The notes under the pieces were generated by a model. It worked only from the letters and a program-made list of their open reading frames with translations. It did not search any database and was not told the DNA's origin. Below, piece after piece: positions 174 through 39,183 of a stretch of 39,438 nt of DNA. How positions within the stretch are numbered: position 1 is the stretch's first letter; the number at the start of each line of letters is the position of its first letter. The translations under genes were made by a program, and so were the position numbers. This DNA is from a virus, in IMG/VR virus record IMGVR_UViG_3300027513_000032, positions 1-39,438 of that record; one strand, given 5' to 3'.

Positions 174-189
174 TTACCCCGAGGAGTAA
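174..189. repeat. 16-bp palindrome, TTACYC-N4-GRGTAA family
   Basis: TTACCC-CGAG-GAGTAA. It lies between the end of the coat gene and the start of the partial gene at the left edge, 27 nt from that GTG. Confidence 0.8.
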
Positions 190-213
190 CCCGTCCCTTG
201 CAGCCCCGGAGGA

Positions 214-1230
214 TCAGACAGGCGTCGGGCTCGTCACGACCGCTTCCGCGATGGCCACCGGATCGACCACCTTGTAGCCGTAGACCTGAAGACCCCTGAG
301 CAGCGTCCCGAAGGTGAACTCCGACCGCAGCGTCTCGACCTTGGATACCTGCGACGCGAACGTGAGCCCGTGCGCGTGACCGGCGTAAATGATGCCTTCA
401 CCAGCCGCCAGCGCCGGAGGACCAGTGATGGCCCCCTTGGGCAGCAGGTTGCTGACGTACAGCGTGAACCTGTCGATCATGCCCAGACGACCGTTACGCA
501 GGATCGAGGTGTCGTCGCCCGACAGGTAAGCCTGACGGAGTTCCGAGGCCTTGATCAGCGTGGCGGCCCAAGTCGGCATGACGATCCAGCGTCCCTGTTC
601 GGGGATGTTCTGTTCGTCGAGGGCTTGGCCCAACCTGAGGATCACCGCCAGGATCGTCACCTGGCCCGCTACAGGCGTCGCCGCCTGATTGGCGACGACC
701 GGCAGTGGCGTGCCCGTGACACCCAAGTTGATGGTGCCGGAAATCACGCCCCCCGTGAGGCCGCGATTTTTGGCGTGGGCTTGACCCATCAGGCCCAGAA
801 GAACGTCCGTATCGATGACGATCTTCATCTGCTGCGCGGCGTCGTCCGACCAGATGCCCATCAGGTTGATGTCGCTCTGGATCTCCATCACGTCGTCGAG
901 GATCTCGTTGAAATATTTGCCCTTGTCGATGTTGAGATCGACGATGTTGGACGCCGGGCGGTCGACGGCGAGATTACCGCCCACGAGATAATCGCGAATG
1001 GTGATCGTCGGCTTGGTGCGGATATGCACCTTGTCGCCCTGATTGCGGATCTCGCCTTCGTAGTCGGTATTCGAAATCGCGGCCAGAACGGTCGATGCGT
1101 AGAACTTCTCGATCAGCTTCCCGGACCAGATCTCCGGGATAAACGTACCCGCATACGGCGGGGTCGGCTGGGCACTGCCCGTCGGAAAAATCGGAGGGGT
1201 AGTACCTGCACCAGCAAGAGGATAGGCCAT
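214..1230 (-). CDS. Major capsid (coat) protein
   Basis: A 338-residue protein that would form the icosahedral shell. The N-terminus is Pro/Gly-rich and leads into IPEIWSGKLIEKFYASTVLA. This is followed by the GDKVHIRTKPTITIRDYL region typical of P22-type/HK97-fold coat proteins of podoviruses, and the C-terminus has alternating hydrophobic beta segments ending ...EAVVTSPTPV. It lies immediately downstream of a scaffold-like gene and two genes below the small virion proteins and portal, the usual head-gene order. GGGAG sits about 6 nt upstream of the ATG. Length and position fit a coat protein. The assignment is from family-like sequence and context, not a search. Confidence 0.85.
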   Translation of the reverse strand: MAYPLAGAGTTPPIFPTGSAQPTPPYAGTFIPEIWSGKLIEKFYASTVLAAISNTDYEGEIRNQGDKVHIRTKPTITIRDYLVGGNLAVDRPASNIVDLNIDKGKYFNEILDDVMEIQSDINLMGIWSDDAAQQMKIVIDTDVLLGLMGQAHAKNRGLTGGVISGTINLGVTGTPLPVVANQAATPVAGQVTILAVILRLGQALDEQNIPEQGRWIVMPTWAATLIKASELRQAYLSGDDTSILRNGRLGMIDRFTLYVSNLLPKGAITGPPALAAGEGIIYAGHAHGLTFASQVSKVETLRSEFTFGTLLRGLQVYGYKVVDPVAIAEAVVTSPTPV

Positions 1231-1255
1231 TAGATGCTCCCAGGCGTGCCCAGGA

Positions 1256-2404
1256 TCACCTCATGTATGGATCTCTGGGCAACTGTGTGCGGTTGTCGGA
1301 AAGAATGCGACCCTCGCGCTGCGCCAGCATGATGTCTTGGTCGATTGCACGTTGATCCTGCTCGCGACCACGATAACGTCCGGCAGCCACATCGGTGTAA
1401 AACCGTGTGATTTCAGCGGCGGTGTAGACTGGCTTCTCAGCGGGTTGACCACCGGCTGAGTGGGCTCTGCCCGGAGCGGCTAGGGTGATCAGATCCAAGG
1501 GCGCTCCTGGGCTCCGGGGGTCCATCGGGGTATCCGATACGACCATGCGGGAGGGAGGTGGCGTCCTCGGCTGACCTTGCCCTTGCGGGTTCGTGGCAGC
1601 CTCCTCTGCGAGGAAGGCCTGGAAAAATGCGGCTACCCTGTGGGGATCACCGGAGTTCCAAGCATCCTGCATTAGCGTCTTACGAATAGCACCGGAGAAA
1701 ATATCCGGCAACTGGGACCATTGGATAAATCTCGGATCGCGGTTCAGGTCGGACCACCGGGGGATCATGCCCTCCAACGTGGTGTTCATCCGATTGAGGA
1801 AGGCGTTGCCGGTTTCCTGCTGGACGTACCCGAGTTGGCCCCTCAGGCTCTGGATCTCCTGCTGGAGCGGGCCCGCCGTCTCGGCGGCGACACGGCGCAT
1901 GACGTCAACGAACTCGGGGCCGTAGTCCGCAATCTCCTGCTCGGTGACCAGCGGACCAGGCTCGGCGTAGCCATTGGCCTGCGGCGGCGTGCCGGTCTTC
2001 AGCAGCCGGTTCTCCTGCTCGATCTGTTCCAGGCGTTGGCTGAGGGACGTGATCGCTTCGCGGGCCCGCCGGTTCTCGGCCTCGGCACGGCCGTTCAGCG
2101 ACTTGAACCGGCGCTCCCAGGAGCCGTCGTCCTCGGGATCGGGCGTACCACCGGGTCCGACCGGCGGCGCGTCGGGCGGCGACTGATCGGACGGCGCTTG
2201 GCTGGGCGGCTCCTGCGGCGGGGCCTGGCGATCTTCGATCTGGGCGGCAACCGACGGTTCGGCCGTACCGGCAATCGCCTGCTGGATGGCCTCGGAGCGG
2301 CGACCCTGGTCGAGGATCTGCTGCGGGATCTTCACGTTGGGGTCGACCCCCGCCATCGGGGTCTGTTTTGCGATGATCTCGGCGGCTGTCTTGGGCAGGG
2401 CCAT
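1256..2404 (-). CDS. Scaffold-like capsid assembly protein
   Basis: 382 residues, Pro/Gln/Asp-rich and probably largely disordered. A clear coiled coil lies around residues 100-140 (repeated E/R/L heptads, ERRFKSLNGRAEAENRRA then LSQRLEQIEQENRLL), and the tail is charged. This composition and a position between portal and coat are typical of internal scaffolding proteins, which direct coat assembly and leave or are cleaved from the shell. GAGGAA precedes the ATG. The preceding gene's stop overlaps this start by one base (TAATG), implying translational coupling. The role is inferred from composition and gene order. Confidence 0.7.
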   Translation of the reverse strand: MALPKTAAEIIAKQTPMAGVDPNVKIPQQILDQGRRSEAIQQAIAGTAEPSVAAQIEDRQAPPQEPPSQAPSDQSPPDAPPVGPGGTPDPEDDGSWERRFKSLNGRAEAENRRAREAITSLSQRLEQIEQENRLLKTGTPPQANGYAEPGPLVTEQEIADYGPEFVDVMRRVAAETAGPLQQEIQSLRGQLGYVQQETGNAFLNRMNTTLEGMIPRWSDLNRDPRFIQWSQLPDIFSGAIRKTLMQDAWNSGDPHRVAAFFQAFLAEEAATNPQGQGQPRTPPPSRMVVSDTPMDPRSPGAPLDLITLAAPGRAHSAGGQPAEKPVYTAAEITRFYTDVAAGRYRGREQDQRAIDQDIMLAQREGRILSDNRTQLPRDPYMR

Positions 2405-2646
2405 TACTTCCTCGCTTCGTACTTGGCCCGAAGGTCGAGGCAGTCTTCCAGCTTCTGTCGAAGCTGAGTTACCAACTGTGCCTTCCCCTGGACCGGAAAG
2501 ATGACGTTCGGTTCGGCCGCCTGAAGGTCGTCTCGGCAGCGGCTTTCAAAGACCCTGAAGGCGTCCAGCAGCTTGTCGTACTCCCTTGGGGCGGCGAGTT
2601 TCAAGTCCGCCGCCGCCATAACAAGCGGAAATAACGGATCGCTCAC
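2404..2646 (-). CDS. Small protein of head operon, unknown
   Basis: 80 residues beginning at GTG 2646, which overlaps the TGA of the preceding gene (GTGA). The product starts MSDPLFPLVMAAADLKLAAP and is helical and charged after that (DAFRVFESRCRDDLQAAE, QLRQKLEDCLDLRAKYEARK). I do not recognise the family. Its one-base overlap with the scaffold-like gene means it is translated as part of the head operon, so a minor virion or assembly role is likely. Confidence 0.65.
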   Translation of the reverse strand: MSDPLFPLVMAAADLKLAAPREYDKLLDAFRVFESRCRDDLQAAEPNVIFPVQGKAQLVTQLRQKLEDCLDLRAKYEARK

Positions 2647-3095: not shown

Positions 3096-3111
3096 TTACC
3101 CCGCCGAGTAA
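3096..3111. repeat. 16-bp palindrome directly upstream of a start codon
   Basis: TTACCC-CGCC-GAGTAA on the plus strand. Read on the minus strand it is TTACTC-GGCG-GGGTAA, one base before the ATG at 3094. It fills the whole gap between that gene and the preceding stop (3112). Confidence 0.85.
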
Positions 3112-5752: not shown

Positions 5753-6244
5753 ATGGCCAAGCTCCCCGCCCTCCTGGATGACGCCGGGATCTCCCGCCTA
5801 GCGAGAGAAGTGGCCCGCGACATCAAGGAACTTCCCGACATCTTGGCGACGTTCAAGCTGACGGATGAGCAATTTGACCGGATCGTCGACAGCAAGTTCT
5901 TCCAGACCCGGCTCAACGAGGAAGTCCAGCTATGGAACGCAAGCGACGCCCCCGCGATCAACAAGCGGATCGAAACCAAGGCCGCCACGATGGTGGAGGA
6001 CTGCCTGCTGGAGGTCTACGCGCTGGTCCACGACCGGGAACAACCCCTGGCGGCCAAGGTGGAAGCCCTCAAGTGGGCCGCCCGCATGGCTGGTCTGGGC
6101 GAAGCAAAGACGGGCGCATCAGATGGTGGCGGAGTGAAAATCACGATCAACGTGGGCGGCCAGGAGCTTAAGTTCGACAAGGAAAAGGTGAACTTACCCC
6201 CGCGAGTAACCGACGTGGTTGATCTTACCCCGGACAAAACCTGA
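5753..6244 (+). CDS. Small terminase subunit
   Basis: 163 residues. The N-terminal part (about 1-50: DDAGISRLAREVARDIKELP, then a DEQFDRIVDSKFFQTRLNEE helix) is a DNA-recognition-like helical region and the middle is helical. The C-terminus is a beta-like tail (VKITINVGGQELKFD), as in phage small terminases that mark the packaging site and recruit the large subunit. It overlaps the large terminase start by one base (TGATGG). The assignment rests on position and general similarity. A 16-bp palindrome lies in codons near the C-terminus. Confidence 0.75.
   Translation: MAKLPALLDDAGISRLAREVARDIKELPDILATFKLTDEQFDRIVDSKFFQTRLNEEVQLWNASDAPAINKRIETKAATMVEDCLLEVYALVHDREQPLAAKVEALKWAARMAGLGEAKTGASDGGGVKITINVGGQELKFDKEKVNLPPRVTDVVDLTPDKT
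6194..6209. repeat. 16-bp palindrome inside small terminase gene
   Basis: TTACCC-CCGC-GAGTAA, read in frame as LPPRVTD near the C-terminus of the small terminase. Confidence 0.8.
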
Positions 6245-7914: not shown

Positions 7915-7930
7915 TTACCCCGCCGAGTAA
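7915..7930. repeat. 16-bp palindrome in operon gap
   Basis: TTACCC-CGCC-GAGTAA, in the gap between two minus-strand genes. It is identical to the copies at 3096 and 34211. Confidence 0.8.
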
Positions 7931-7938: not shown

Positions 7939-8073
7939 TCAGGGCTTATTTACGGTGTAGGGCTGGGCCCCTTTCGAGAAATACTCGTAGACCTGGCCGC
8001 CCCAGATCACCAGCAGCGTGAAGATCACGGCGACGCAGAACACCAGGATGAGCGCGCCCCCACTACGCATCAT
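7939..8073 (-). CDS. Small single-pass membrane protein
   Basis: 44 residues. It starts at ATG 8073, overlapping the TGA of the gene before it (ATGA); a second in-frame ATG follows directly. One transmembrane segment is clear (ALILVFCVAVIFTLLVIW), followed by a short polar C-terminus (GQVYEYFSKGAQPYTVNKP). The overlap and the uninterrupted frame support a real gene despite its size. Small membrane proteins of this kind in phages are sometimes holins or exclusion factors, but nothing here distinguishes these. Confidence 0.6.
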   Translation of the reverse strand: MMRSGGALILVFCVAVIFTLLVIWGGQVYEYFSKGAQPYTVNKP

Positions 8074-8321
8074 TTGGTAATATGTTTCGTTGCCCACATG
8101 ACGGCTTCTTCCATCTTGGTCTTGGCGATGGATAGCTCCCGGCTCGGTTCAAGGTGCTTGCTCATGTAGAGGACGAAGTCGAGGCCGCAGTCCTTGAACC
8201 ATTTCATGTGGGTTTTCTCGGCCTCGGTCAGCACCCGGTACTCGTGGCGCATGACGTTGTTGGTCACGCGCTGATCGGACGTCGACGGCACGAACTCGGG
8301 GTTGGTATCGGGGGGTTTCAT
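8070..8321 (-). CDS. acb2-like: Putative Acb2/Tad1-like anti-CBASS cyclic-oligonucleotide sponge
   Basis: 83 residues starting at ATG 8321 in an ATGA overlap with the Ig-domain gene. After a short variable N-terminus comes RHEYRVLTEAEKTHMKWFKD, then a second helix with SRELSIAKTKMEEAVMWATK and HIT at the end. This two-helix arrangement (YR-L-EE-...-K-G, then SREL-A-TK-EEAVMWA-KHIT) matches my knowledge of the Acb2/Tad1 hairpin family. Members of that family form small oligomers that sequester cyclic di- and trinucleotide signals of CBASS or the Thoeris-type signal, blocking host defence. The assignment is by motif recognition; no structure or binding test is available. A longer in-frame start at 8390 is less likely. 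Confidence 0.65.
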   Translation of the reverse strand: MKPPDTNPEFVPSTSDQRVTNNVMRHEYRVLTEAEKTHMKWFKDCGLDFVLYMSKHLEPSRELSIAKTKMEEAVMWATKHITK

Positions 8322-9930: not shown

Positions 9931-10156
9931 CTTAAACCCCGGATTAAATAGGGTCAATTGAAAAATACCATCCCGTATTTTGGATAGACCTGAACTCCAC
10001 CCGCCCCCCGCCACCGGCTGGCCATGTGGGGGGTGGGGGGGAGGGGGCCTGGCTATTGATAGCCCCATATTCCTGGCCGCCCCCCGCGCCCCCCGAACAA
10101 ATAGCACTAGGCTATCGGGGGATGTGTCCCCTTTTTTGGAACGGAAGGCTTACCCA
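9923..10156. promoter_or_regulatory. Divergent intergenic region with G-rich tract and dyads
   Basis: 234 bp between divergent operons. It holds an AT-rich part (9930-9985), a plus-strand tract of G6-T-G7-A-G5 (10028-10047), a perfect GGCTAT-TG-ATAGCC dyad (10051-10064) and ATAGC-ACTAG-GCTAT (10101-10115). A terminator-like hairpin follows. It is the obvious place for promoters in both directions. No convincing sigma-70 pair was found. Confidence 0.5.
10118..10137 (+). terminator. Possible attenuator or terminator
   Basis: GGGGA-TGTG-TCCCC followed by T6, 20 nt upstream of the ATG at 10157. The stem is short (5 bp). Because no plus-strand gene precedes it, it may act as a leader attenuator for the 10157 gene. 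Confidence 0.4.
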
Positions 10157-10164
10157 ATGGGTAA
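10150..10164. repeat. 15-bp palindrome with embedded ATG
   Basis: TTACCCAATGGGTAA; the ATG at 10157 is the start of the 245-residue gene. GGAAGG lies just upstream. Confidence 0.9.
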
Positions 10165-10894
10165 CGACAATCAGACGGCCCCCACGACGGGGGAGTTGCT
10201 AAACTCGACGATGCGTGACCGGATGTTTGCCAAGGTGGACGACATCGGTTTCGCGATTGCGATGGGCCGGGATGGCATGAGCGTTGCTGGCCATGACTTG
10301 AACCGGCTTTTCGTGAGCGAGCCGACAACGGACATTGCCATTGTTGGCGAGTTCTATGACCGCATTCAGACGGCGGTCACGAATGCCGCGCTGGCCAATG
10401 GGAAAACCGTCAAAGAGCAAAAGGCTAGCTCGCGCGGTACCCAAGTCAACAAGTTCGCGAACTTCGCGCTTATCGCGCTGATCCCGAACGTCAACGCTCT
10501 CCCCGCGTATGAGTTCGCTCGCGTGGAAAGCAACCTCGGCTATAACAAGCTCGTGGGCTGCATTGTGGCCATCAAGCGCGAGGTCGCCAAGGACAAGGAC
10601 GCGAGCAAGGACACCTTGTTTCAGGCCGTTCGCGACGCGTTGACCAAGGTTCCTCCTCCCCTCTCCGAGGTGGTCGAGGAGCTTGCTGAAACGTGGAACA
10701 CCTTGCGCCACGGCGACGAAAAGAAGGGCCATCCCTACGATGCGGCTTTCACGCGCCTCCTCGCGACGTATCCCGCCGACTACGCGGAACACGTCGCCCG
10801 CGCGCTGGCCGTCGTGGTCGAATGCACCAAGGCCATCGAGAGCGACATGGCACGCGCCACGGCCGCCGCCAAGCTCTCGGCTCTGTCGAGCTAG
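10157..10894 (+). CDS. Unrecognised 245-residue protein, own transcription unit
   Basis: The ATG is inside the 15-bp palindrome, giving the MGN start shared by many genes here; GGAAGG is 8 nt upstream. The protein is soluble, mixed helical, without a motif I can name (GELLNSTMRDRMFAKVDDIG, later ALIPNVNALPAYEFARVESN, C-terminal Ala-rich helix). It stands between a leader hairpin and a strong intrinsic terminator, so it is probably transcribed alone and highly. That isolation and a position next to the divergent control region suit an early takeover or regulatory protein, but this is only inference. Confidence 0.75.
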   Translation: MGNDNQTAPTTGELLNSTMRDRMFAKVDDIGFAIAMGRDGMSVAGHDLNRLFVSEPTTDIAIVGEFYDRIQTAVTNAALANGKTVKEQKASSRGTQVNKFANFALIALIPNVNALPAYEFARVESNLGYNKLVGCIVAIKREVAKDKDASKDTLFQAVRDALTKVPPPLSEVVEELAETWNTLRHGDEKKGHPYDAAFTRLLATYPADYAEHVARALAVVVECTKAIESDMARATAAAKLSALSS

Positions 10895-10911: not shown

Positions 10912-10945
10912 CCCCGCGCGCCAGGAATGGCGCGCGGGGTTTTTT
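10912..10945 (+). terminator. Strong intrinsic terminator
   Basis: Perfect 11-bp stem CCCCGCGCGCC / GGCGCGCGGGG with loop AGGAAT, followed by T6 (10940-10945). It ends the 10157 gene. Confidence 0.9.
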
Positions 10946-11012: not shown

Positions 11013-11027
11013 TTACCCAATGGGTAA
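11013..11027. repeat. 15-bp palindrome with embedded ATG
   Basis: TTACCCAATGGGTAA; ATG 11020 starts the 116-residue gene. Confidence 0.9.
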
Positions 11028-11370
11028 GGCGAACGATAGAACGTGGATGGGTGATCGGATAGGCATGGGCGACGCTAATCTGCCCAGCACGTATCAGCAT
11101 CCCAAGGACATTGCAGCGCGACGCGCGCACGCGATAGCCAGGAATGTGCAACGCGCGCACGACGAGCGCCGCGTTCCTGCTGGCCGCGTCTATCAGGTCA
11201 TCAGCGACACGAGGGGCGAGCCTGAGGTGGGCGATGTTTACCCAATGGGTAACTCCGCCATCGTCTACAATCCTAAGACCAAGTTGTGGGAACACGCGAC
11301 GTGCCTGGCAGTACAACAGCCGCTCGCCGTCACCGCCCGATTGGTCCGCAATAACCCGTACAAAAGGTGA
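11020..11370 (+). CDS. Unrecognised basic protein
   Basis: 116 residues beginning MGKANDRTWMGDRIGMGDAN at the palindrome-embedded ATG, with AAGGTG upstream. The middle is Arg/His/Ala-rich (AARRAHAIARNVQRAHDERR) and the C-terminal half is beta-like with VYQVISDTRGEPEVGDVY. A second full 15-bp palindrome lies inside the gene and encodes YPMGN, so an internal ATG in the same context could start a shorter 42-residue product. It is the last gene before the iteron region. No family recognised. Confidence 0.65.
   Translation: MGKANDRTWMGDRIGMGDANLPSTYQHPKDIAARRAHAIARNVQRAHDERRVPAGRVYQVISDTRGEPEVGDVYPMGNSAIVYNPKTKLWEHATCLAVQQPLAVTARLVRNNPYKR
11238..11252. repeat. 15-bp palindrome inside gene, in-frame ATG
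   Basis: TTACCCAATGGGTAA, encoding YPMGN in the 11020 gene. The ATG at 11245 is in frame and could be an internal start. Confidence 0.9.
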
Positions 11371-11733
11371 ACCACCTACAATATTTAATTCGTGTAGATG
11401 GTTTAGAGGCGATTGTGTAGACGGCAGCACACTCGCTAACTCATTGAAATCCTATATATATTATATAATGTAATAATATAATCATACCATCTACAGTAAA
11501 TTAACCCTTTCATAGCGCGAGGGCTGGCCCGCCGTGTAGATGGTTTGCGGATTAATTAATAATTAATTCCAGACCATCTACAAATCGGGCCCCCTCTCCA
11601 ATGATACAGTGTTGATTTACTGTAGATGGTGTGGGTTCGATTGTTACCCAATGGGTAACCCTTTGATCTAACACCATAATAAAATTGTGTTACCCATCTA
11701 CACTTTCGCCTCACAACCATCTACAGGTAACAA
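11371..11733. other. Iteron-like AT-rich non-coding region, candidate replication origin or control locus
   Basis: 363 bp without a gene. The 10-mer ACCATCTACA or its complement TGTAGATGGT occurs exactly at 11393 (-), 11486 (+), 11535 (-), 11573 (+), 11621 (-) and 11716 (+). Close relatives lie at 11371 (ACCACCTACA), 11416 (TGTAGACGGC) and 11693 (CCCATCTACA). The pair at 11486 and 11621 extends to a 16-bp inverted match (ACCATCTACAGTAAAT). Two AT-rich cores lie between copies (11451-11484 and 11551-11569), the second flanked by the inverted pair 11535/11573. One 15-bp palindrome sits at 11644. Repeats next to melting-prone DNA are typical of phage origins, but no DnaA box is seen. Confidence 0.7.
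11644..11658. repeat. 15-bp palindrome in iteron region
   Basis: TTACCCAATGGGTAA, non-coding, between the iteron copies at 11621 and 11693. Confidence 0.9.
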
Positions 11734-11919
11734 ATGAAAAAGAAAATCTATTTCTACACCAACCAGCATGGCCAGCCAGTCCGCGCGGTATACGAGGATC
11801 TGCCGGGGATAGTTAAGGCCAGGGTTGATTGGTTAAAGTGGAAGCGAAAACAAAAGCTTAACCGCGTCCGCAGGGAGCGCGAGGCGCGTGCTGTTCAACT
11901 CAGAAAGGACAAGCCATGA
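11734..11919 (+). CDS. Small very basic protein
   Basis: 61 residues, starting MKKKIYFYTNQHGQPVRAVY and ending in a Lys/Arg-rich helix (WLKWKRKQKLNRVRREREAR), a likely nucleic-acid binder. It is the first gene after the iteron region and overlaps the next gene (ATGA). Position makes an origin or RNA-related role possible, but no family is recognised. Confidence 0.6.
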   Translation: MKKKIYFYTNQHGQPVRAVYEDLPGIVKARVDWLKWKRKQKLNRVRREREARAVQLRKDKP

Positions 11920-12098
11920 CTATTGTCTACGCTATTGCGGGCCTAGCCGCATTTATCTTGGCGCTGGCCAGCATCGGCCGTCACTCTCCGAAACCCCCCG
12001 TCATCATCAAGCCAGTGGTGATGCGTGAAATAACAAATCATGCGCCAATTATTTTGCGCAATGTTATTACCAATGTGCGGTGGCCTATCAACGAATAG
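11916..12098 (+). CDS. Small single-pass membrane protein
   Basis: 60 residues; N-terminal membrane segment (IVYAIAGLAAFILALASIG) then a 40-residue tail rich in Pro, Ile and Asn (PPVIIKPVVM, ITNHAPIILRNVITNV). Starts in an ATGA overlap with the basic protein upstream. Function unknown. One CACTCTCCGA word is inside it. Confidence 0.6.
   Translation: MTIVYAIAGLAAFILALASIGRHSPKPPVIIKPVVMREITNHAPIILRNVITNVRWPINE
11992..12001 (+). repeat. CACTCTCYGA word
   Basis: CACTCTCCGA inside the 11916 membrane-protein gene, read as HSP. Confidence 0.5.
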
Positions 12099-12106
12099 CC
12101 GCGCGG

Positions 12107-12163
12107 GTGCAGTTTCCTGCACATCCGTTCCGGTACAGCAGCACCGCTATTGCTGTACCGGAA
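12107..12163 (+). other. Two tandem hairpins between genes
   Basis: GTGCAG-TTTC-CTGCAC (12107-12122) followed by a perfect 13-bp stem TTCCGGTACAGCA / TGCTGTACCGGAA around a 10-nt loop (12128-12163). There is no T-run, so it is more likely an RNA-processing or stability element than a terminator. Confidence 0.6.
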
Positions 12164-12184
12164 TAACTACCCGTTTGTCAACCC

Positions 12185-12199
12185 TTACCCAGTGGGTAA
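12185..12199. repeat. 15-bp palindrome with embedded GTG
   Basis: TTACCCAGTGGGTAA; GTG 12192 is in frame with the 96-residue gene. Confidence 0.9.
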
Positions 12200-12482
12200 C
12201 ACAATGGCCAAGCTAAAGTTCTCCGACATCTCGGCACTCGCCAGGATAACCAACACGAGCGAGGGAATACTTCCCTACGGTAATTCGTGGCGCGAGGATG
12301 CGACTACGCGCAAGCCGATTGATCCCGAGGGCGAGATAGAGGCCGTGACGATTTACGGCTCGCACCTCACCCTCACCGAGTTCGACAACCTCATGCGCGA
12401 CCTCCACGGCTTCCAGTTCAAGTGGGCCAAGGATGGGTGCGGAACCTATCTCCGCATCAGTGCCGACCGTGTGGAGTTCTAG
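12192..12482 (+). CDS. Unrecognised 96-residue protein
   Basis: GTG inside the palindrome gives MGNTMAKLKFSDISALARIT; ATG 12204 is a downstream alternative, and neither has a strong ribosome-binding site. The product is a small mixed alpha/beta protein (AVTIYGSHLTLTEFDNLMRD, then FKWAKDGCGTYLRISADRV). It lies just after the two hairpins. No family recognised. Confidence 0.6.
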   Translation: MGNTMAKLKFSDISALARITNTSEGILPYGNSWREDATTRKPIDPEGEIEAVTIYGSHLTLTEFDNLMRDLHGFQFKWAKDGCGTYLRISADRVEF

Positions 12483-12554
12483 ATGCGCGACCTCAGAAAT
12501 GCCATCGCTGATTTCATCGTGTTCTTAATCGAGTTAGTAACGGAGGTGATGTGA
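12483..12554 (+). CDS. Possible 23-residue peptide
   Basis: ATG directly follows the TAG of the gene upstream, with GGAG 6 nt before. The peptide MRDLRNAIADFIVFLIELVT plus EVM is amphipathic and its TGA overlaps the next start (ATGTGATG). It may simply couple translation of its neighbours. Confidence 0.35.
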   Translation: MRDLRNAIADFIVFLIELVTEVM

Positions 12555-12715
12555 TGCGTGAGGAACTAGAGAAGATGCGGCGCGAGCAGGCTATTCGTGC
12601 CCAGCGCCGTGAGAAGGCTCGCCGCGAGCGCGAGATGTTCGAAATGAGCGGGTTGATCCGGTTCATGTACCAGGTCGAGCCGCCCTGCCCGCCTTCGACG
12701 GGTGATGACGACTAG
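12554..12715 (+). CDS. Small highly charged helical protein
   Basis: 53 residues, starting at an ATG overlapping the previous stop by one base, with GGAGGTG upstream. Residues 1-30 are an Arg/Glu-rich helix (MREELEKMRREQAIRAQRRE, then KARREREMFEM), followed by a short hydrophobic part and a Cys/Pro-containing acidic tail. Possibly a nucleic-acid or coiled-coil partner. Unrecognised. Confidence 0.5.
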   Translation: MREELEKMRREQAIRAQRREKARREREMFEMSGLIRFMYQVEPPCPPSTGDDD

Positions 12716-12719
12716 CAGG

Positions 12720-12734
12720 TTACCCATTGGGTAA
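12720..12734. repeat. 15-bp palindrome, intergenic
   Basis: TTACCCATTGGGTAA, five bases after the stop of the 53-residue gene. Confidence 0.9.
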
Positions 12735-12799
12735 CTAGAGGGGAGGTGCGCCATTGCGTTAAACCTAGCGGTCTATCGAGGCCTGAACATGCTGACACG

Positions 12800-12814
12800 T
12801 TACCCACGGGGTAA
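12800..12814. repeat. 15-bp palindrome, intergenic
   Basis: TTACCCACGGGGTAA, about 105 bp upstream of the 12920 gene. Confidence 0.85.
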
Positions 12815-12919
12815 TGCGGCATGGGCCACGCGCTAAACGCGCTCGCTTAGTTGCGACGGTGTGCATCCCTTCATGCGAATGAGGGGGTGCAGCCCGACTT
12901 AACTAGGAGGTTAGTCATC

Positions 12920-13263: not shown

Positions 13264-13384
13264 CCTCATGCTGACCTTCACCGCCATCGTGCTGATGGGG
13301 GTGGCGGCCGTCACCGATAACCTGTGGATCATGGCCGCTGGTGGGGTGCTTCTCCTCATCCGGCTAGTCAGGTGCTACCTATGA
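13256..13384 (+). CDS. Small membrane protein
   Basis: 42 residues starting at the palindrome-embedded ATG (MGNLMLTFTAIVLMGVAAVT), with GGGAGG 9 nt before. Two short hydrophobic stretches flank DNLWIMAAGG; the end is basic (RLVRCYL). Likely membrane-bound. Its TGA overlaps a 9-codon ORF (13381-13410) leading into the next palindrome. Confidence 0.55.
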   Translation: MGNLMLTFTAIVLMGVAAVTDNLWIMAAGGVLLLIRLVRCYL

Positions 13385-17624: not shown

Positions 17625-17625
17625 G

Positions 17626-28273: not shown

Positions 28274-28289
28274 TTACTCGTGGGGGTAA
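28274..28289. repeat. 16-bp palindrome before start codon
   Basis: TTACTC-GTGG-GGGTAA, 2 nt before the ATG at 28292; a GTG inside (28280) is also in frame. Confidence 0.85.
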
Positions 28290-29515: not shown

Positions 29516-29531
29516 TAACTCGACGGAGTAA
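29516..29531. repeat. Variant palindrome TAACTC-N4-GAGTAA before start codon
   Basis: TAACTCGACGGAGTAA, directly after a TAG stop and 3 nt before the ATG at 29535; GGAG in the right arm is a likely ribosome-binding site. Confidence 0.75.
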
Positions 29532-29885: not shown

Positions 29886-31329
29886 TCGGCTGCATGTTCA
29901 GCACACGCCCGCTACGACCGTTTTGCTGCGATCTATCGGAATTGAGTTACCCCCGGCTGTAACTTCTTATTACGACTGGTGCGGCGGTACTCCCTTCGAC
30001 ATACAAAAACGCACGGTAGAGCTTTTGACCGAAAACCCCAGGGCGTACGTCCTGTCGAGTTTTGGAACTGGAAAAACCAAGTCAGTATTGTGGGCATTTG
30101 ATTTTTTACGCTCCCAAAATTTTGGAAAACGCATTTTGGTTATAGCCCCTTTATCCACTCTCCGATTTGTTTGGGCGCGCGAAGCTTTCGCCACCGTCCC
30201 CCACCTCAAGGTTAACGTCCTCCATGGGACGCGGGAGAAGCGGCTGGCCCTGCTGAATGACCGGACTGCCGACGTCTACGTGGTTAACCCGGACGGGCTG
30301 GGCATCATCGCGGACGTGGTGATGAAGCGCACCGACATTAACGTGCTGGCCATCGATGAACTCGCCATGTTCCGTAACCGCAGCCTGCGTACCAAGCTGC
30401 TCAAGAAGATCGCCCGCACGAAGCCCGTCGTCTGGGGGATGACCGGCGCTCCGATGCCCAACGCGCCCACCGATGTTTACCAGCAGGCACAAATTGTAAC
30501 GCCCAACACCTGTGGCATCTCGTTCATTCGGTTCCGTGATGAAACCATGGTGAAGGTGTCAGACTTCAAGTGGGTGCCGAGGGTGGGCGCTATTGAGAAG
30601 GCGATGCAGGTTCTGAGGCCCCACGTCAGGTACACCCTGGATGACGTGACCGAGTTGCCCGATTTCGTTTCGCAATACGTCGAGGTAGGTGCAAGCGTAA
30701 AGCAGATGATGGTCTACAAGGACATCAAGCAGCATTGTTTCGCCCTCGCCCAGAACAAGGAGATCACGACAGCTAACGCCGCCGTAGCGATGGGTAAGCT
30801 GCTCCAGATTAGCTTGGGTTGGTGCTACGCATCTGACGGCAGCGTCATCGAGTTGGATCCAGGACCGCGCCTCGATGCGCTAGTCGATATGATCGAAGCG
30901 AACGACCACAAGCTGTTGGTGTACGTGCCGTACAAGCACGCTCTGGCTGGTGTAGTTACTCACTTGGGTAAGGCGGGCATCGATTGCGCTGCGGTATCGG
31001 GCGACACATCCCAGAAGGATCGGGCTGAGATCTTCAACCTGTTCCAGAACACCACGAAATATAAAGTCCTTGTTGCCCATCCGGCTGTTGTTGCCCACGG
31101 GCTCACGCTGACAGCAGCAGACTGCATCGTATGGCTTGGACCTATTACATCATTGGAGGTTTACGATCAGGCGAACGCTAGAATTCGCAGGGTCGGACAG
31201 AACCACCGGCAGGCGTTCATCCACATGTACGCCACGCCGATGGAGCAACAGATCTACAAGTTGTTGGTCAACAAGATCGACGCACAAGATCAGTTGTTGC
31301 AGTTGCTTGAGCAGGCGACTGAGGCGTAG
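29794..31329 (+). CDS. SNF2-like DNA helicase
   Basis: 511 residues from ATG 29794, or 504 from TTG 29815, which has a better GGAG. Motifs: Q-like FDIQKRTVEL, Walker A SSFGTGKTK (about 88-96), Walker B AIDELAMF (DEL instead of DEAH), motif III GMTGAPMPN, and motif VI YDQANARIRRVGQNH. These mark a SNF2-type superfamily 2 helicase or translocase. With the adjacent VRR-NUC-like nuclease it forms a known phage pair that could process replication forks. The large overlap with the nuclease makes the start uncertain. Confidence 0.85.
   Translation: MEHWSVILNTVSLPLDKRIVGLIPDAKLVGDRLHVQHTPATTVLLRSIGIELPPAVTSYYDWCGGTPFDIQKRTVELLTENPRAYVLSSFGTGKTKSVLWAFDFLRSQNFGKRILVIAPLSTLRFVWAREAFATVPHLKVNVLHGTREKRLALLNDRTADVYVVNPDGLGIIADVVMKRTDINVLAIDELAMFRNRSLRTKLLKKIARTKPVVWGMTGAPMPNAPTDVYQQAQIVTPNTCGISFIRFRDETMVKVSDFKWVPRVGAIEKAMQVLRPHVRYTLDDVTELPDFVSQYVEVGASVKQMMVYKDIKQHCFALAQNKEITTANAAVAMGKLLQISLGWCYASDGSVIELDPGPRLDALVDMIEANDHKLLVYVPYKHALAGVVTHLGKAGIDCAAVSGDTSQKDRAEIFNLFQNTTKYKVLVAHPAVVAHGLTLTAADCIVWLGPITSLEVYDQANARIRRVGQNHRQAFIHMYATPMEQQIYKLLVNKIDAQDQLLQLLEQATEA
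30156..30165 (+). repeat. CACTCTCYGA word
   Basis: CACTCTCCGA in the helicase gene, read as TLRF; the only copy beyond 22.2 kb. Confidence 0.5.
30956..30971. repeat. 16-bp palindrome inside helicase gene
   Basis: TTACTC-ACTT-GGGTAA, read as VTHLGK. Confidence 0.8.
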
Positions 31330-31793: not shown

Positions 31794-32968
31794 TGAGCAA
31801 CGAGATTGTGGTACCCCAGAACTTCGGCCAGGTACCGGCCGTCTTCAAGGAAAGCCCCATCGATCCCGGCGCATGGACGGCGGGCATCGGGATGTCGTGG
31901 CCTACCCTTACCCTCAAGGGTAAGGAGTGGGGCTGGCGGTTCCGGGGTGAGAGCATGACGTACACCGCCCCCGACCCCAACGCGGGCGGTTCGCTCCAGC
32001 CCATGCGGGCGCTGGAGGTAGTGCTGGTCGCCCCGGCCAAGCGCATCAGCAAGGTCTACTACAAGGACGGCTACAAGGACGGCGAGCGTACTCCGCCGAC
32101 GTGCTGGTCCGCTGATGGGATCACCCCCGATCCCGGCGTTGGCGAGAAGCAGTCCAATACCTGCCGTGGGTGTGACCACAACGTCCTGACGGTTGGCCCC
32201 AGCGGCCAGCGCGGCAAGGCGTGCAGCGACAACAAGCGGATCGCCGTGGTCACGGTGGCCGACCTCAAGAACACCGACTTCGGTGGGCCGTTCATGCTGC
32301 GGCTCCCGCCCGGTAGCTTCCAGAACTACACGGCCTTCACGTCCGTGATGAACTCGCGCGGGTATCCGCCCCACACCTACGTCACCCGCATGACGTTCGA
32401 CAGCACCCCCCACCCCAAGGTGGTGTTCTCCCCGGTCCGCATCCTGACCGACGAGGAAGGGGCGATCATCGTCGCCCACCAGAAAGACCCTCGGGTGGAC
32501 GAGATGCTGAACGACAAGGCGGCGGGTTCGGTCGCTGATGTTGACCTCGATCCCGAGATGACGGGTGAGGTGGGCAAGCTGCCCGAGACGACAGCCAACC
32601 CCACCGGCTGGAAGAAGCCCACCAACGGCGAAGCCAAGGTGGTCGAGCCGGTAGCCGAGCCGGTCAAGCCCACCCTGACGGCGGCCCAGCAGGAGATCGC
32701 TGACCTCAAGGCCAAGCTGGCCGCCGCCGAGAAGGTGGTCGAGCCTGAGCCGGAGCCCGTGCTGACGCCCGAGCAGCTTGAGATCCAGGCCCTCAAGGCC
32801 AAGCTGGCCGAGGCAGGCAAGAAGAAGCCGGGGCGTCCCCGGACCCAGCCGGTCGCCCCACCCGCCACGGTTACCGCGTCGAGTAACGGGGCCACCCCCG
32901 CACCGGCCGACGAACTCAGCAACAACATCGCTGATCGCGTCGCCAATATGCTGAAGAAGGCCGAGTAG
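31793..32968 (+). CDS. Zinc-ribbon and AT-hook protein, possible ssDNA-binding protein
   Basis: 391 residues from GTG 31793. The N-terminal domain (about 1-220) has a Cys cluster (TCW ... TCRGC ... KAC) and a GSFQNYTAF ... MTFDSTPHPKVVFSPV beta region common in phage proteins near DNA polymerases. Then come two Ala/Glu/Lys coiled-coil blocks (EIADLKAKLAAAEK; EIQALKAKLAEAGK) and an AT-hook-like KKPGRPRTQP near the C-terminus. DNA binding is likely; a single-stranded-DNA-binding role is inference from context. Confidence 0.55.
   Translation: MSNEIVVPQNFGQVPAVFKESPIDPGAWTAGIGMSWPTLTLKGKEWGWRFRGESMTYTAPDPNAGGSLQPMRALEVVLVAPAKRISKVYYKDGYKDGERTPPTCWSADGITPDPGVGEKQSNTCRGCDHNVLTVGPSGQRGKACSDNKRIAVVTVADLKNTDFGGPFMLRLPPGSFQNYTAFTSVMNSRGYPPHTYVTRMTFDSTPHPKVVFSPVRILTDEEGAIIVAHQKDPRVDEMLNDKAAGSVADVDLDPEMTGEVGKLPETTANPTGWKKPTNGEAKVVEPVAEPVKPTLTAAQQEIADLKAKLAAAEKVVEPEPEPVLTPEQLEIQALKAKLAEAGKKKPGRPRTQPVAPPATVTASSNGATPAPADELSNNIADRVANMLKKAE
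31908..31923. repeat. 16-bp palindrome inside gene
   Basis: TTACCC-TCAA-GGGTAA, in the 31793 gene. Confidence 0.8.
32871..32886. repeat. Variant palindrome inside gene
   Basis: TTACCG-CGTC-GAGTAA, one mismatch; read as VTASSN. Confidence 0.55.
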
Positions 32969-33024: not shown

Positions 33025-36000
33025 ATGACGGGTCCAATCGACCCGGTTTCGACGTTCCTGAGCATCGTCGAGCCGTGGTCTACGAACACGTACGTCAACA
33101 TCGAAGCCTATACCTGGGAGCCCGCCCCGAACGGCGACCCCAGCAAGGGCGAGGGTGATCTAAGCAGGCGGCAGGGCTCCCGCGCGGCCCGCACCGTGGC
33201 CGAGGCGGCCCAGTACATCCGTTGGCAGAACGGGCTGGGCAAGGAGGTCTACGTCCGTATGGCGGGCCACGGCCAGCCGGGGATTGCAAAAACCGACAAG
33301 CGCGGTAGGACTTACTTCACGGCGCTGGGCGGCAAGGCGAACGCCAAGTTCCAGCAGTCCTTCTTCATCGACGTGGACGTCAAGGCGGGCGGCCACGGGT
33401 CGACAGCCGAGGCCAAGGATGCGGTCATCGCCATGTGCGTGGCCCTCGGCCTGCCGCTGCCCTCACTGGTGGTCTACAGCGGCGGCGGGGGGTTCCATGC
33501 CCACTGGGTGCTGGACGCGCCGCTGCCCACGGCTGACTGGTTGCCGCTGGCGCGGGCTCTGTCTAGGGCCTGCAAGGCCCACAACATCCACGCTGACGAC
33601 AACCTGACGGTCAACCCTGTCTGCCTGCTGCGGATACCGGGCACCCACAACAGGAAGTATGGGGCTCCTAGGGACGTGACCATGGAGGTCATCGGCCCAG
33701 CGATAAATGTAGCAATTATCTCCCAGGTTCTCGGTCCATATGTCCTGCCGGAAAATTTAGGTGGAACCCCAAACGGGACACCTGGTAACGATCCGTGGCC
33801 GCTGCATCTTTTTCCCGCCAGAACCGTGCGTCCCCTGGCGGAGGCCTGGCACGACGGAATTTCCTCGGGCGTCCTCACCCTGGAGGAGGTGGCCGAGGGC
33901 TGCCCGCTGGTGAAGGCTACCCTCAAGACCGGGGGTAAGGGCCAAGAGCAGCCCCTGTGGTTCATGATGGGCCACGTCCCCCTGTTCACCGTGGACGGGC
34001 TCAAGGACTACCACCGCCTGAGCGACGGGCACGACCTGTACGAGCCGGACAAGACCGACCAGAAGTACGCCGAGATCCTCAAGGCCAAGGACGAGCAGGA
34101 TCTGGGCTGGCCCCGCTGCGCTACCTTCGAACAGAACGGCTCGCCCTATTGCGCGGCCTGCCCCAACAGGGGGTTGGGCAAGTCCCCCCTGAACTTCGCC
34201 GTCCGGGCCGTTACCCCGCCGAGTAATCCACAGGAGCCTGGGGATAGCGGGGATAAGTCCTACGTCCCTCCCCCGAGGGCGATGTTCCACGTCGACGGGT
34301 ACCACGACGACCTCGCCACCGGGATCTACAGCCGGATGGTCACCAAGATGGTGAACAACAAGCCCAAGGAGGTCGAAGAAATCGTCAACGACTTCCCGAT
34401 CTGGAACCTCGACTACCTGCGGGGGGCCGACGGCCGGATGGCCATGCACTTCGATACCACCATGGCCAAGGTCGAGAACATCCACGTCACCCTACAGACC
34501 GAGGCCCTGCGCAACAGCGACACCCTGCGGGGAAGCCTGCTGGGCCAGTATGGTTTGCCGATCATCCCCGGCTCGGAGAAAGGATTTCTGACCTTCATGG
34601 CCTCGTTCAAGAGCCAGATGCGCCGCACGCGGGACGTGATCGTGCGCCAGGAACTGATGGGCTGGTCCGAGATAGGCGGTACCCCCGGAGGTAACCCGGT
34701 GGGTTTCATCTATGGACCCTCCAAGTTCACCAAGACCGGAGCGGAGCCGTTCTTCCAGCCTGACAGCATGATCCGGGAACAGTACTTCCCGACCGGCTCG
34801 CCCGACCCGTGGCTGAAGGCCATCAAGATGATCAACGCCGAGAAGCGCCCGGAGATGGACCTCCTGGTGGCGACGGCGTTCGCCGCTCCTCTGATGCGGT
34901 TCACCGGAGAAAAGGGCGTGGTGGTCAGCGCATTCTCGAGCGCCACTGCCGCCCATAAAACCACCGCCATCAAGATCGGGCAGGCGGTGTGGGGTGCCTT
35001 CAAGGGCATCAACCAGTTGACCGATACGCTCAACAGCGTGATCGCCCGCACCGGCAAGACGCGGGTGGTGCCCACCTACTACGACGAGATGAAGTCCTCG
35101 ACCGACATCAAGCGGTTCGCGTCGATGATCTACACCTTCGCTGGCGGCCGGGGTAAGGGACGGCTTAACCGCAACGCCGAGATCAAGGACGTCGATACCT
35201 GGGACACGTTACTCGTCGGGGTAAGCAACGACAGCCTGTTCGATCACATGGCCCACCTCGACAAGGGCACCGACGCTGGCGTCGCCCGCATCTTCGAGTT
35301 CGAGATCATGCGGCCCGACCCCAACTCCCCCGGTCAGATCTCCATGGGTGAGGCGGGCGCGCTGCTCAAGAAGCTGGAACACAACTACGGCCACGCTGGC
35401 CTGAAGTACGCCGAGCATCTGGGCAAGTCGGTCGACACCCTGCCCGGTGAGATTACCCAGCGGGTAAGCCAGTTGCAGAAGGAACTCAAGGCTGAGGACG
35501 CTGATCGGTTCTGGGTATCAGCAGCGGCTGTCCTCATGGTCGGTGCCGAGCAGGCCAACAAGATCGGCCTCACCAACTTCGACATCCCCAAGATGCGGAC
35601 CTTCATTGGCGAGATCTACACCCGGATGCGTGGGGCGAAAGCCGCTGGCGACATGGACATCTCCAACAAGGAGACATTGAAGGCCGCGCTAGCGAACTAT
35701 CTCAACACCCATCGCCGCTCGATATACGCTACCGATACGAAGGGGTTGTCCGCTAGTGCTGGCGGTGCAGTGTCCTCAGTAACTGTGCTTAACCACGCCG
35801 ACATCGCTGGGTACACCGATAAGTTCACGGTCCGTTACATCAAGGACACTAACACCCTGAGGATCTCTATCTCGGCGTTGAAGGACTGGCTTTCCGAGAA
35901 GCAACTGTCTCCGGGCGTGTTCATGAAGAACCTGGTCACGCTGCTCGGGGGCAAAATTGTTGGTCCTACGAACCTTCTCCCTTACGGAAAGGGCGATGCG

Positions 36001-36063
36001 CCAGAGCGTCTGATCGAGCTTGACCTTAACCTCTCCGACCTTGCAGGACTGTACGAGATCTAG
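33025..36063 (+). CDS. Primase-helicase (AEP-type primase with phage helicase domain)
   Basis: 1012 residues. The N-terminal primase has hhhDxD in FFIDVDVKAGG (D116, D118) and the His motif GGFHAHWVL (H158, H160), then LRIPGTHNRK, as in archaeo-eukaryotic primases. A Cys cluster (RCATF ... YCAACPNRG) lies near residue 370-385. The helicase/ATPase part has SSATAAHKTTAIKIG (H644-K645), where most P-loops have G-K, and YYDEMKS (D687-E688). Opens the fork and primes synthesis for the polymerase. Contains three palindromes. Confidence 0.85.
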   Translation: MTGPIDPVSTFLSIVEPWSTNTYVNIEAYTWEPAPNGDPSKGEGDLSRRQGSRAARTVAEAAQYIRWQNGLGKEVYVRMAGHGQPGIAKTDKRGRTYFTALGGKANAKFQQSFFIDVDVKAGGHGSTAEAKDAVIAMCVALGLPLPSLVVYSGGGGFHAHWVLDAPLPTADWLPLARALSRACKAHNIHADDNLTVNPVCLLRIPGTHNRKYGAPRDVTMEVIGPAINVAIISQVLGPYVLPENLGGTPNGTPGNDPWPLHLFPARTVRPLAEAWHDGISSGVLTLEEVAEGCPLVKATLKTGGKGQEQPLWFMMGHVPLFTVDGLKDYHRLSDGHDLYEPDKTDQKYAEILKAKDEQDLGWPRCATFEQNGSPYCAACPNRGLGKSPLNFAVRAVTPPSNPQEPGDSGDKSYVPPPRAMFHVDGYHDDLATGIYSRMVTKMVNNKPKEVEEIVNDFPIWNLDYLRGADGRMAMHFDTTMAKVENIHVTLQTEALRNSDTLRGSLLGQYGLPIIPGSEKGFLTFMASFKSQMRRTRDVIVRQELMGWSEIGGTPGGNPVGFIYGPSKFTKTGAEPFFQPDSMIREQYFPTGSPDPWLKAIKMINAEKRPEMDLLVATAFAAPLMRFTGEKGVVVSAFSSATAAHKTTAIKIGQAVWGAFKGINQLTDTLNSVIARTGKTRVVPTYYDEMKSSTDIKRFASMIYTFAGGRGKGRLNRNAEIKDVDTWDTLLVGVSNDSLFDHMAHLDKGTDAGVARIFEFEIMRPDPNSPGQISMGEAGALLKKLEHNYGHAGLKYAEHLGKSVDTLPGEITQRVSQLQKELKAEDADRFWVSAAAVLMVGAEQANKIGLTNFDIPKMRTFIGEIYTRMRGAKAAGDMDISNKETLKAALANYLNTHRRSIYATDTKGLSASAGGAVSSVTVLNHADIAGYTDKFTVRYIKDTNTLRISISALKDWLSEKQLSPGVFMKNLVTLLGGKIVGPTNLLPYGKGDAPERLIELDLNLSDLAGLYEI
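34211..34226. repeat. 16-bp palindrome inside primase-helicase gene
   Basis: TTACCC-CGCC-GAGTAA, read as VTPPSN. Confidence 0.8.
35209..35224. repeat. 16-bp palindrome inside primase-helicase gene
   Basis: TTACTC-GTCG-GGGTAA. Confidence 0.8.
35453..35467. repeat. 15-bp palindrome inside primase-helicase gene
   Basis: TTACCCAGCGGGTAA, read as ITQRVS; the only exact 15-bp copy outside 10.1-21.1 kb. Confidence 0.9.
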
Positions 36064-36829: not shown

Positions 36830-37011
36830 AAAAGGAACTCGCTCCGCTGACAGATGAGTTCATCCGGGCAGCTATCGTCAACGGTAACATCGTGCCGCCC
36901 CCAAATGATCACATCGAAACTGTGCCGAGAAAAATCTTCATCGGCATAGCCTGGGCGGTCCCCATGAGCCTGTTACTCTGGGGGGTAATTTACTGGATAT
37001 TGTTTCTTTAG
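36826..37011 (+). CDS. Small membrane-anchored protein
   Basis: 61 residues from GTG 36826 (MKKELAPLTDEFIRAAIVNG), with a C-terminal membrane segment (IFIGIAWAVPMSLLLWGVIY, then WILFL). The end overlaps the convergent HNH gene by 4 nt. The last plus-strand gene of the window. Confidence 0.55.
   Translation: MKKELAPLTDEFIRAAIVNGNIVPPPNDHIETVPRKIFIGIAWAVPMSLLLWGVIYWILFL
36973..36988. repeat. 16-bp palindrome at gene end
   Basis: TTACTC-TGGG-GGGTAA, in the membrane segment codons of the 36826 gene. Confidence 0.8.
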
Positions 37012-38338: not shown

Positions 38339-38353
38339 TTACCCTCCGAGTAA
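38339..38353. repeat. Variant 15-bp palindrome before start codon
   Basis: TTACCC-TCC-GAGTAA; on the minus strand GGAGGG and then ATG, with the preceding gene's stop at its other edge. Confidence 0.75.
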
Positions 38354-38527
38354 CTAGCGACCCCGCTTAACGCCCCCGCCGCGTTTGAAGTTCCTGGCGG
38401 GTACGTTGGCTGGGCCACCGATTTTGCCGGTGTAAGGCGTCACCTTCGACGCCTTGAGCATCGGCTTGTCAGTCTTCTCCTTGCCGATCTTGTCGCTATC
38501 GGCCTTGCCGAAACCTTTGGCGACCAT
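38354..38527 (-). CDS. Small Lys/Gly-rich protein
   Basis: 57 residues (MVAKGFGKADSDKIGKEKTD ... ARNFKRGGGVKRGR). Basic and probably disordered, with the FKRGGGVK end typical of this set. One base after the stop of the 46-residue gene, immediately before the palindrome at 38339. Likely a virion-internal or DNA-contacting protein. Confidence 0.5.
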   Translation of the reverse strand: MVAKGFGKADSDKIGKEKTDKPMLKASKVTPYTGKIGGPANVPARNFKRGGGVKRGR

Positions 38528-38528
38528 G

Positions 38529-38669
38529 TTACTTAACCTTTCCGCCCTTCTTGAAGAACGCGGGCTTCTCGGCGGCGACGGGCGCACCCTTCTTGGCGAA
38601 CGGCGGGGCCTTACCCTTGGCTCCGAACGGTGGAGCCTTCTTGCTAGCGAACGGGTTGGGTTTTGCCAT
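38529..38669 (-). CDS. Small Lys/Pro-rich protein ending FFKKGGKVK
   Basis: 46 residues: MAKPNPFASKKAPPFGAKGK, then APPFAKKG, ending FFKKGGKVK. The frame has three A-P-P-F or similar units. This C-terminal FFxKGGKVK peptide is common on small phage proteins. TGATG overlap with the gene before it. Confidence 0.55.
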   Translation of the reverse strand: MAKPNPFASKKAPPFGAKGKAPPFAKKGAPVAAEKPAFFKKGGKVK

Positions 38670-39166
38670 CACGTATCTCCCTTCTTTGAATAGTCCTTGA
38701 AGTTCGTCCGGGGACCACCCCCGGCGAAGTCCGGCTTACTCCGGTGGAGGCCGAAGCTCCCCACCTTACCGACCTGACCGCCCTTGGCGTAGTTATAGAT
38801 GCTGAAGCTGGAGTGGGGATCGACAGGTGTCGCTCCCTTCAAGCCCCGGTTCATCTTCATTCCAGCACCGCCGCCCGATCCGCCGCGTCCTGCACCGCCC
38901 GCGCTGCCACGAACACTGGGCGCGCTCTTAGCTCCCTGGCTGCTGGGCGGGTTGCTCCCCCGCCACCGCTCCGCTTCGCTGCGAATGGCAGGCTCGTTCG
39001 CCGCCTTGACGACCTCCGGTGTTGCCGGGGCGGGTCGCGTCGGCTGCTGCGCTGCGGTGGTAAGTCCGCTCCCTTGGGATGCGATGCGTTCGTCCACATC
39101 GACATCTGTATGGCTGTCAATCTTGTTCTGGCCCGTTGCCATGCGGGCGCTCTGGGTGGGCTTCAT
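38669..39166 (-). CDS. Gly/Ser-rich virion-type protein
   Basis: 165 residues, low complexity (Ala/Pro/Ser/Gly/Arg), with Gly-rich RGSAGGAGRGGSGGGAG and a Lys/Gly end (YNYAKGGQVGKVGSFGLHRS). The ATG is one base after the 16-bp palindrome at 39168, whose arm supplies GGAGGAG. Likely a minor virion or scaffold-like protein; unknown function. Confidence 0.55.
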   Translation of the reverse strand: MKPTQSARMATGQNKIDSHTDVDVDERIASQGSGLTTAAQQPTRPAPATPEVVKAANEPAIRSEAERWRGSNPPSSQGAKSAPSVRGSAGGAGRGGSGGGAGMKMNRGLKGATPVDPHSSFSIYNYAKGGQVGKVGSFGLHRSKPDFAGGGPRTNFKDYSKKGDT

Positions 39167-39167
39167 C

Positions 39168-39183
39168 TTACTCCTCCGAGTAA
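39168..39183. repeat. 16-bp palindrome directly upstream of a start codon
   Basis: TTACTC-CTCC-GAGTAA; on the minus strand GGAGGAG then ATG 39166. Confidence 0.85.

Follow-up and report, generated by a model that had tools for sequence, protein, structure and literature searches.

Two spacing variants of one dispersed palindrome in a tailed-phage genome: an evolving array of candidate protein-binding sites

Why should a phage genome carry about 40 copies of a single short palindrome, evenly spread along its length, in two forms that differ by one base at the center and that occupy largely different regions? The question is raised by the virus record IMGVR_UViG_3300027513_000032, 39,438 bases of a tailed phage that were analyzed in full and are here called the window. 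Leftward genes of the window include those for the major capsid protein and portal, and its rightward genes encode replication proteins (family-A DNA polymerase, helicase, a DUF927 primase-like protein, and a PD-(D/E)XK nuclease). The nearest named phage is Rhizobium phage RHph_TM3_14A (capsid protein 70% identical, polymerase 42%), and because the relatives have genomes of ∼60 kb, the window is probably a fragment of a larger genome. The reading that we favor, with a probability of about 0.6, is that both palindrome classes are spacing variants of one dispersed, dyad-symmetric array that is bound by a symmetric, probably phage-encoded protein and whose letters and spacing evolve in concert.

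Exact matching finds TTACYCN4GRGTAA (the 16-bp class) 16 times in the window, at every position listed by the first-pass annotation that drew attention to the motif; the chance expectation in dinucleotide shuffles is 0.01, as had been estimated, and 0 of 100 shuffles reached 16 copies. TTACYCN3GRGTAA (the 15-bp class) has 22 matches, with 0.00 expected. When the core is relaxed to TTAC-Nk-GTAA, 23 copies are found at k=7 and 25 at k=8, with only 0 or 1 at k=6 and at k=9 to 13. The letters of the 15-bp class are more invariant than those of the 16-bp class. The two classes are also segregated. The proposed concentration of 15-mers in ∼10.1 to 21.1 kb, with 16-mers elsewhere, is borne out, as 20 of the 22 strict 15-mers but only 2 of the 16 strict 16-mers fall within ∼10.0 to 21.2 kb (Fisher P=1.3e-6), with 20/23 versus 5/25 for the relaxed cores (P=3.3e-6). 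Segregation is nevertheless incomplete: 15-mers occur away from the main block at 35453-35467 and 38339-38353, and 16-mers persist amid the 15-bp-rich region at 13814-13829 and 14993-15008.

Comparison with a sister phage, G021 (L265; 21.4 kb), indicates how the classes are related. G021 is colinear with the window (protein identity of 91% for capsid, 88% for terminase, 83% for portal, and 74% for the early protein c15 discussed below) and carries 35 sites of the 16-bp class plus one 15-mer. Orthologous sites were paired by flank alignment, with a cut-off at the 99.5% null threshold. Six window 15-mers, at 11013-11027, 14161-14175, 15319-15333, 16054-16068, 16925-16939, and 17626-17640, are paired with G021 16-mers at 11565, 15300, 17152, 18576, 20230, and 20954, respectively. 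On the late side, the window sites at 174-189, 3096-3111, and 6194-6209 are paired with G021 sites at 398, 3481, and 6473, and these have the 16-bp form in both phages. Two further pairs were made by position. At 10150-10164 (G021 10753), a 15-mer and a 16-mer each enclose the start codon of the same gene (10157-10894 in the window). Within a coding gene, the 15-mer at 17191-17205 and the 16-mer at G021 20520 (CTTACCCATCGGGTAACC versus GTTACCCAGCCGGGTAACC) have identical right arms, and the left arm lies one base farther out in G021, in the same reading frame and with no indel. Alignment also places a sister 16-mer near 14993, and the 15-mer at 15053-15067 has no clear G021 counterpart. The pair 13396/18984 exceeded the alignment threshold but is not colinear and was taken as chance.

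The window sequence at 16189-16204, TTACTCGGCAGGGTAG, is likely a former 16-mer, now decayed, as the site is intact in G021 (18709) as TTACCCCGAAGGGTAA. These comparisons are most simply read as showing a single array whose spacing evolves and which, in the early region of the window, went from 16 to 15 bp, a direction inferred from the relic at 16189 and from the sister. The early sites would thereby have switched at unchanged positions and the other sites of the window would have stayed at 16 bp.

The array is a property of a whole lineage. Among the IMG/VR matches listed for the pattern TTACCCANTGGGTAA, the loci with at least three sites that were followed (L106, L110, L155, and L164) all belong to the lineage of the window. 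In a sample of 18 genomes (the window, 16 related IMG/VR records, and RHph_TM3_14A), a search with no preset motif found that each genome carries its own dominant gapped palindrome of ∼15 to 16 bp far above expectation, often in both spacings, and codon-block shuffles of three lineage genomes gave nothing comparable. Half-sites are TTACYC or TTACCC (window, G012, and G013), TTACCT (RHph_TM3_14A and G005), TTACCAC (G003), TTACTC (G014), GTTACAG (G007), TTGACA (G001), TTGATCC (G010), and TACTCC (G011); further relatives have TTACAAC and TTACTCG in a 14-bp form, as well as TTATTC, TTACTAC, and TCCCTAC. No such array was found in the first 50 kb of each of the more distant relatives KPP25, Rollin, and CRP-3. 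In the window, the site just past the major capsid gene (174-189, TTACCCCGAGGAGTAA) occupies the loop of a terminator-like hairpin; many relatives retain this site, often in such a loop, with letters that match each genome's own motif. We suggest that the array is inherited within the lineage and that its letters and spacing change in concert genome-wide.

The suggestion that the two classes mark early and late genes was not upheld. In the window, 16-mers sit in virion genes and replication genes alike; across the lineage, spacing class shows no association with early or late genes in 12 of the 13 genomes testable for both spacings, the exception being G014, with 15-mers on the late side. Runs tests of the spacing classes are not significant in most relatives, so that the spacings are mixed in related genomes, an outcome that the first-pass annotation had itself named as counting against its reading. 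The sole asymmetry of the sites, a CC versus a TC arm, likewise carries no code. Orientation seems to flip from the left to the right part of the window, but it was rejected as a code, since it differs at orthologous sister sites (3096 is CC-left, G021 3481 is TC-left); at 6194, 13814, 14993, and 34211 the asymmetry opposes transcription.

Site placement is far from random. By our own gene calls, 286 of 594 sites in the lineage are intergenic (125 expected), 137 adjoin a stop codon (29 expected), and 122 lie ≤25 nucleotides (nt) upstream of a predicted start (19 expected), although these calls miss many small genes and choose starts partly by a ribosome-site score, which may inflate start proximity. 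The deposited, independent annotation of RHph_TM3_14A also places 13 of its 46 sites between genes, with 4.4 expected. In the window, the start proximity reported by the first-pass annotation holds, at 1 to 5 nt. The distance is 1 nt for 3096-3111 (a gene junction; start at 3094, −), 38339 (start at 38337, −), and 39168-39183 (open reading frame start at 39166, −); 2 nt for 28274-28289 (upstream of 28292, +); 3 nt for 29516-29531 (start at 29535, +); and 5 nt for 22746-22760 (start at 22766, +). Three 15-bp sites even hold the start codon, as TTACCCA-ATG-GGTAA, at 10150, 13249, and 16925 (the last for the gene at 16932). The idea that GGAG in the right arm is a ribosome-binding site is plausible at such junction sites but does not extend to a general function, as about half of the 594 sites lie in coding sequence. 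Sites are also spaced more evenly than random under a null that preserves the intergenic/coding split (combined P=8e-16). No conserved flanks surround them. A restriction or modification target was rejected on reasoning, because restriction sites should be depleted in a phage genome and because the sites of the array vary in spacing.

The array is a feature of the DNA rather than of the RNA. Where RNA pairing is under selection, G-U mispairs are preferred over C-A mispairs on the sense strand; here G-U and C-A are about equally common, at 53:36 and 52:53 for the two bases that adjoin the core and 140:174 for all positions together, which reveals no RNA-hairpin bias. What was first framed as two related specificities or two regulators is best read as two spacing variants of one palindrome that serve as protein-binding sites. 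A dimeric (two-fold symmetric), sequence-specific, and probably phage-encoded protein would dock on paired half-sites of TTACYC or a close variant, at a total length of 15 or 16 bp.

What occupied sites might do is less certain. Those at gene junctions may act on transcription elongation along operons, in the manner of stoperators, a tentative proposal that is favored by their location at junctions and close to starts within long operons, with no promoter motifs. Since no promoter-like motif lies near the sites, any effect on transcription is presumptive. Alternatively, the sites could serve genome organization rather than gene regulation, with a nucleoid-type or segregation protein bridging or coating the whole phage DNA. 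Even spacing over all operons, the many sites in coding sequence, and the lack of promoter association fit such a role, but the marked bias of the sites toward junctions and starts is more than pure architecture would need, unless junctions merely tolerate such sequence; on balance, we regard an exclusively organizing role as doubtful.

For the favored reading, in which a phage protein, as we infer, binds the array, the best candidate binder is c15 (15353-16048, + strand, 231 amino acids), together with its divergent paralogue c15b (10157-10894, + strand, 245 amino acids, the first rightward gene called). Among the near-universal gene families, c15 is the one early gene that encodes no virion protein and no evident enzyme; an orthologue is detected in 16 of the 18 genomes. 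Sites flank the gene in several genomes and do so in the window, at 15319-15333 (∼20 nt upstream) and 16054-16068 (directly past the gene). No Pfam match was found for c15, and its structural model is confident (predicted local distance difference test [pLDDT], 88) and all-helical. The kinship of c15b to c15 is indicated by the c15 model, which finds the G021 copy at E=5e-7, and by an hhalign comparison between the family and the copy in the window (P=0.0026); the c15b model is of low confidence (pLDDT 60), with a helix order similar to that of c15. The site-binding protein would then belong to an all-helical orphan family. The c15b gene may be its own transcription unit, as it has terminator-like hairpins on both sides, a strong one directly 3′ (10912-10939, +; 12 pairs and then a T-run) and a weaker one directly upstream (10117-10132, +).

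Several observations weigh against this reading or its choice of protein. The structure search with c15 returned no Foldseek match at E≤0.001 and no clear PDB match, and no similarity to any known DNA-binding fold was found. c15 was not detected in G011 or G016, whose arrays have more divergent palindromes. Its divergence tracks the motif no better than that of many other genes in a Mantel test, and the motif follows the general phylogeny. A scan of 13 kb for sigma-70 motifs gave four promoter-like hits, none of them at a site and fewer than the shuffled sequences gave. The binder could also be a host protein, and one protein that accepts both spacings does not explain a change in only one region of the window.

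Other candidates for the reader were considered. In a search for binders by co-divergence, c15 does not stand out, and its structural likenesses (VIA-align Z of at most 6.6) are within the range for unrelated helical bundles. The two array-bearing genomes with no detectable c15 have in common an early protein of 304 to 331 amino acids (G016 [L273] 14098-15012 and G011 66285-67280), the G016 copy of which has no Pfam or PHROG match; it could be the reader in that subgroup. A 183-amino-acid protein of RHph_TM3_14A (L005; 24216-24767), annotated as hypothetical, has three helix-turn-helix-like stretches by eye; one palindromic site precedes its start by 3 nt, and a second lies within the gene. 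This protein was rejected as a universal binder because a clear homologue exists in only one other genome.

The regional split in the window would be accounted for directly if two paralogous phage regulators served two gene sets, with c15b binding the 15-mers of the early region and c15 binding the 16-mers elsewhere. Both paralogues are present, segregation is sharp, and the 15-bp class, with its more invariant letters, suits a stricter specificity of its own. c15b also diverges fast (32% identity between the window and G021, compared to 74% for c15 and 83 to 90% for the capsid, portal, and terminase proteins), and G021, where the common early genes carry no 15-mers, has a different c15b. However, the sister holds both paralogues yet has one 15-mer among its 36 sites, with 16-mers at the orthologous early positions; most relatives with both spacings, unlike the window and G021, have one detectable copy of c15; and 13814 and 14993 remained 16-mers within the early region. 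Two regulators for different gene sets, as first proposed, are therefore unsupported by relatives that mix the spacings, and we consider this explanation unlikely, although a lineage-specific version with two proteins is possible because the candidate protein is present in two diverged copies in both the window and its sister.

Repeats of this kind might instead be recombination boundaries that aid gene-cassette swaps. G021 has ∼600 bp extra between two identical 16-mers (17152-17795) where the window has the single site at 15319-15333, which looks like the gain or loss of a cassette between repeats; sites are enriched at gene junctions, and similar indels are reported for the repeats of cluster O mycobacteriophages (PMC4351075). 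Only one clear cassette was found, however, sites also lie within essential genes, and recombination would not need a concerted change of letters and spacing, which makes such a function improbable. Equally hard to sustain is a reader that is a host DNA-binding protein, for which the phage carries host-type sites. No helix-turn-helix protein was found among 48 scanned proteins of the window, which would suit a host reader. The 48 proteins, from a 39-kb fragment where relatives have ∼60 kb, also included no recognizable integrase. Against a host reader, related phages use unrelated letters (TTACYC, TTGACA, TTGATCC, and TACTCC), which different hosts could explain in part, and the close sister differs in spacing. 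RNA hairpins acting in translation or RNA processing are least credible of all, since, even though some sites occupy the terminator-like hairpin loop past the capsid gene and some overlap a Shine-Dalgarno-like GGAG near starts, there is no G-U excess over C-A on the sense strand, many sites lie deep in coding sequence, and the letters change genome-wide between relatives.

The remaining sites of the window show the same mixture of contexts. In the 16-bp class, 6194-6209 lies within a putative small-terminase gene, upstream of that for the large terminase; 7915-7930, 24911-24926, and 36973-36988 are intergenic; 25378-25393 is directly past a stop codon; 26328-26343 is at a gene's 5′ end; 30956-30971 is within the helicase gene; 31908-31923 is within a gene; and 34211-34226 and 35209-35224 are both within the DUF927 primase-like gene. 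In the 15-bp class, eight sites fall in 11238-14175 (starting at 11238, 11644, 12185, 12720, 12800, 13249, 13396, and 14161), 14699-14713 is within a gene, 16496-16510 is within a gene that is absent from G021 at that place, and 17626-17640, 19063-19077, and 21046-21060 lie past stop codons.

Some neighboring genes merit mention. An 83-amino-acid protein (8070-8321, −) matches PF24729 (E=6e-14), the hairpin domain of Acb2/Tad1, whose family comprises anti-CBASS/Thoeris sponge proteins. An ATPase gene (17953-19059) followed by a metallopeptidase/VWA-like gene (DUF2201; 19655-21043) is kept in 15 of the 18 genomes, and the two resemble a MoxR-VWA pair. The RHph_TM3_14A gene at 42239-45322, annotated as a putative integrase, is a homologue of the window's DUF927 primase-like gene (33025-36063); because of this homology the label is probably wrong, and it gives no sign of a temperate phage.

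The cultured relative RHph_TM3_14A, a phage of Rhizobium etli, has 46 sites and an orthologue of the candidate gene (18372-19100), which makes it directly amenable to binding, deletion, and transcriptome tests. The findings further suggest that selection can act on the spacing of scattered phage repeats where these lie within coding genes. A bolder proposition, speculative and in our judgment rather doubtful, is that the phages possess a new genome-wide DNA-marking system, read by a new all-helical DNA-binding family of no known fold, whose letters and spacing diversify like an immunity code. The window would then have been caught in mid-switch from 16 to 15 bp, with two paralogous readers and with selection base by base even in coding sequence.

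How does the array compare with known systems? Streptomyces phage phiC31 has conserved inverted repeats scattered on its genome that are bound by its repressor and overlap early promoters, unlike the lineage sites, which have no promoter association. Cluster K mycobacteriophages carry SAS/ESAS, asymmetric 13-bp repeats at translation starts whose function is unknown (PMC3203893). The lineage sites are similar in that they adjoin translation starts and, in some cases, have a GGAG-like core, but they are symmetric, and about four-fifths of them lie farther than 25 nt from any predicted start. The stoperators of cluster A phages (L5 and Bxb1) number 20 to 30 per genome, many in short intergenic gaps; each is an asymmetric 13-bp site whose orientation follows transcription and whose reader, a monomer, blocks elongation when bound; their motif diverges with the repressor (PMC6550527 and PMC9283540). 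The window resembles them in having at least 20 sites across the genome with a motif that diverges between relatives, but its sites are dyad-symmetric 15- and 16-mers that keep no fixed orientation. No immunity repressor was recognized among the 48 scanned proteins of this 39-kb fragment.

The closest described analogue is the set of 17-bp repeats of cluster O mycobacteriophages (Corndog), with ∼34 dyad-symmetric sites per genome, between and within genes and mostly off promoters, tied to cassette indels in phages that have no integrase, and of unknown function (PMC4351075). The window likewise has some 30 or more dyad-symmetric sites in and between genes that are not linked to promoters. Cluster O arms are invariant (TGTTCGG) around one fixed 3-bp A/T-rich spacer (PMC4351075), in contrast to the window, where the TTACYC arms are degenerate, two spacings occur, the spacer is not A/T-rich, and the letters differ between relatives; the site sequences are unrelated. 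A cluster O-like design recurs here in a large, mostly uncultured lineage with many site sequences, a natural experiment in which position is kept and letters and spacing change in concert.

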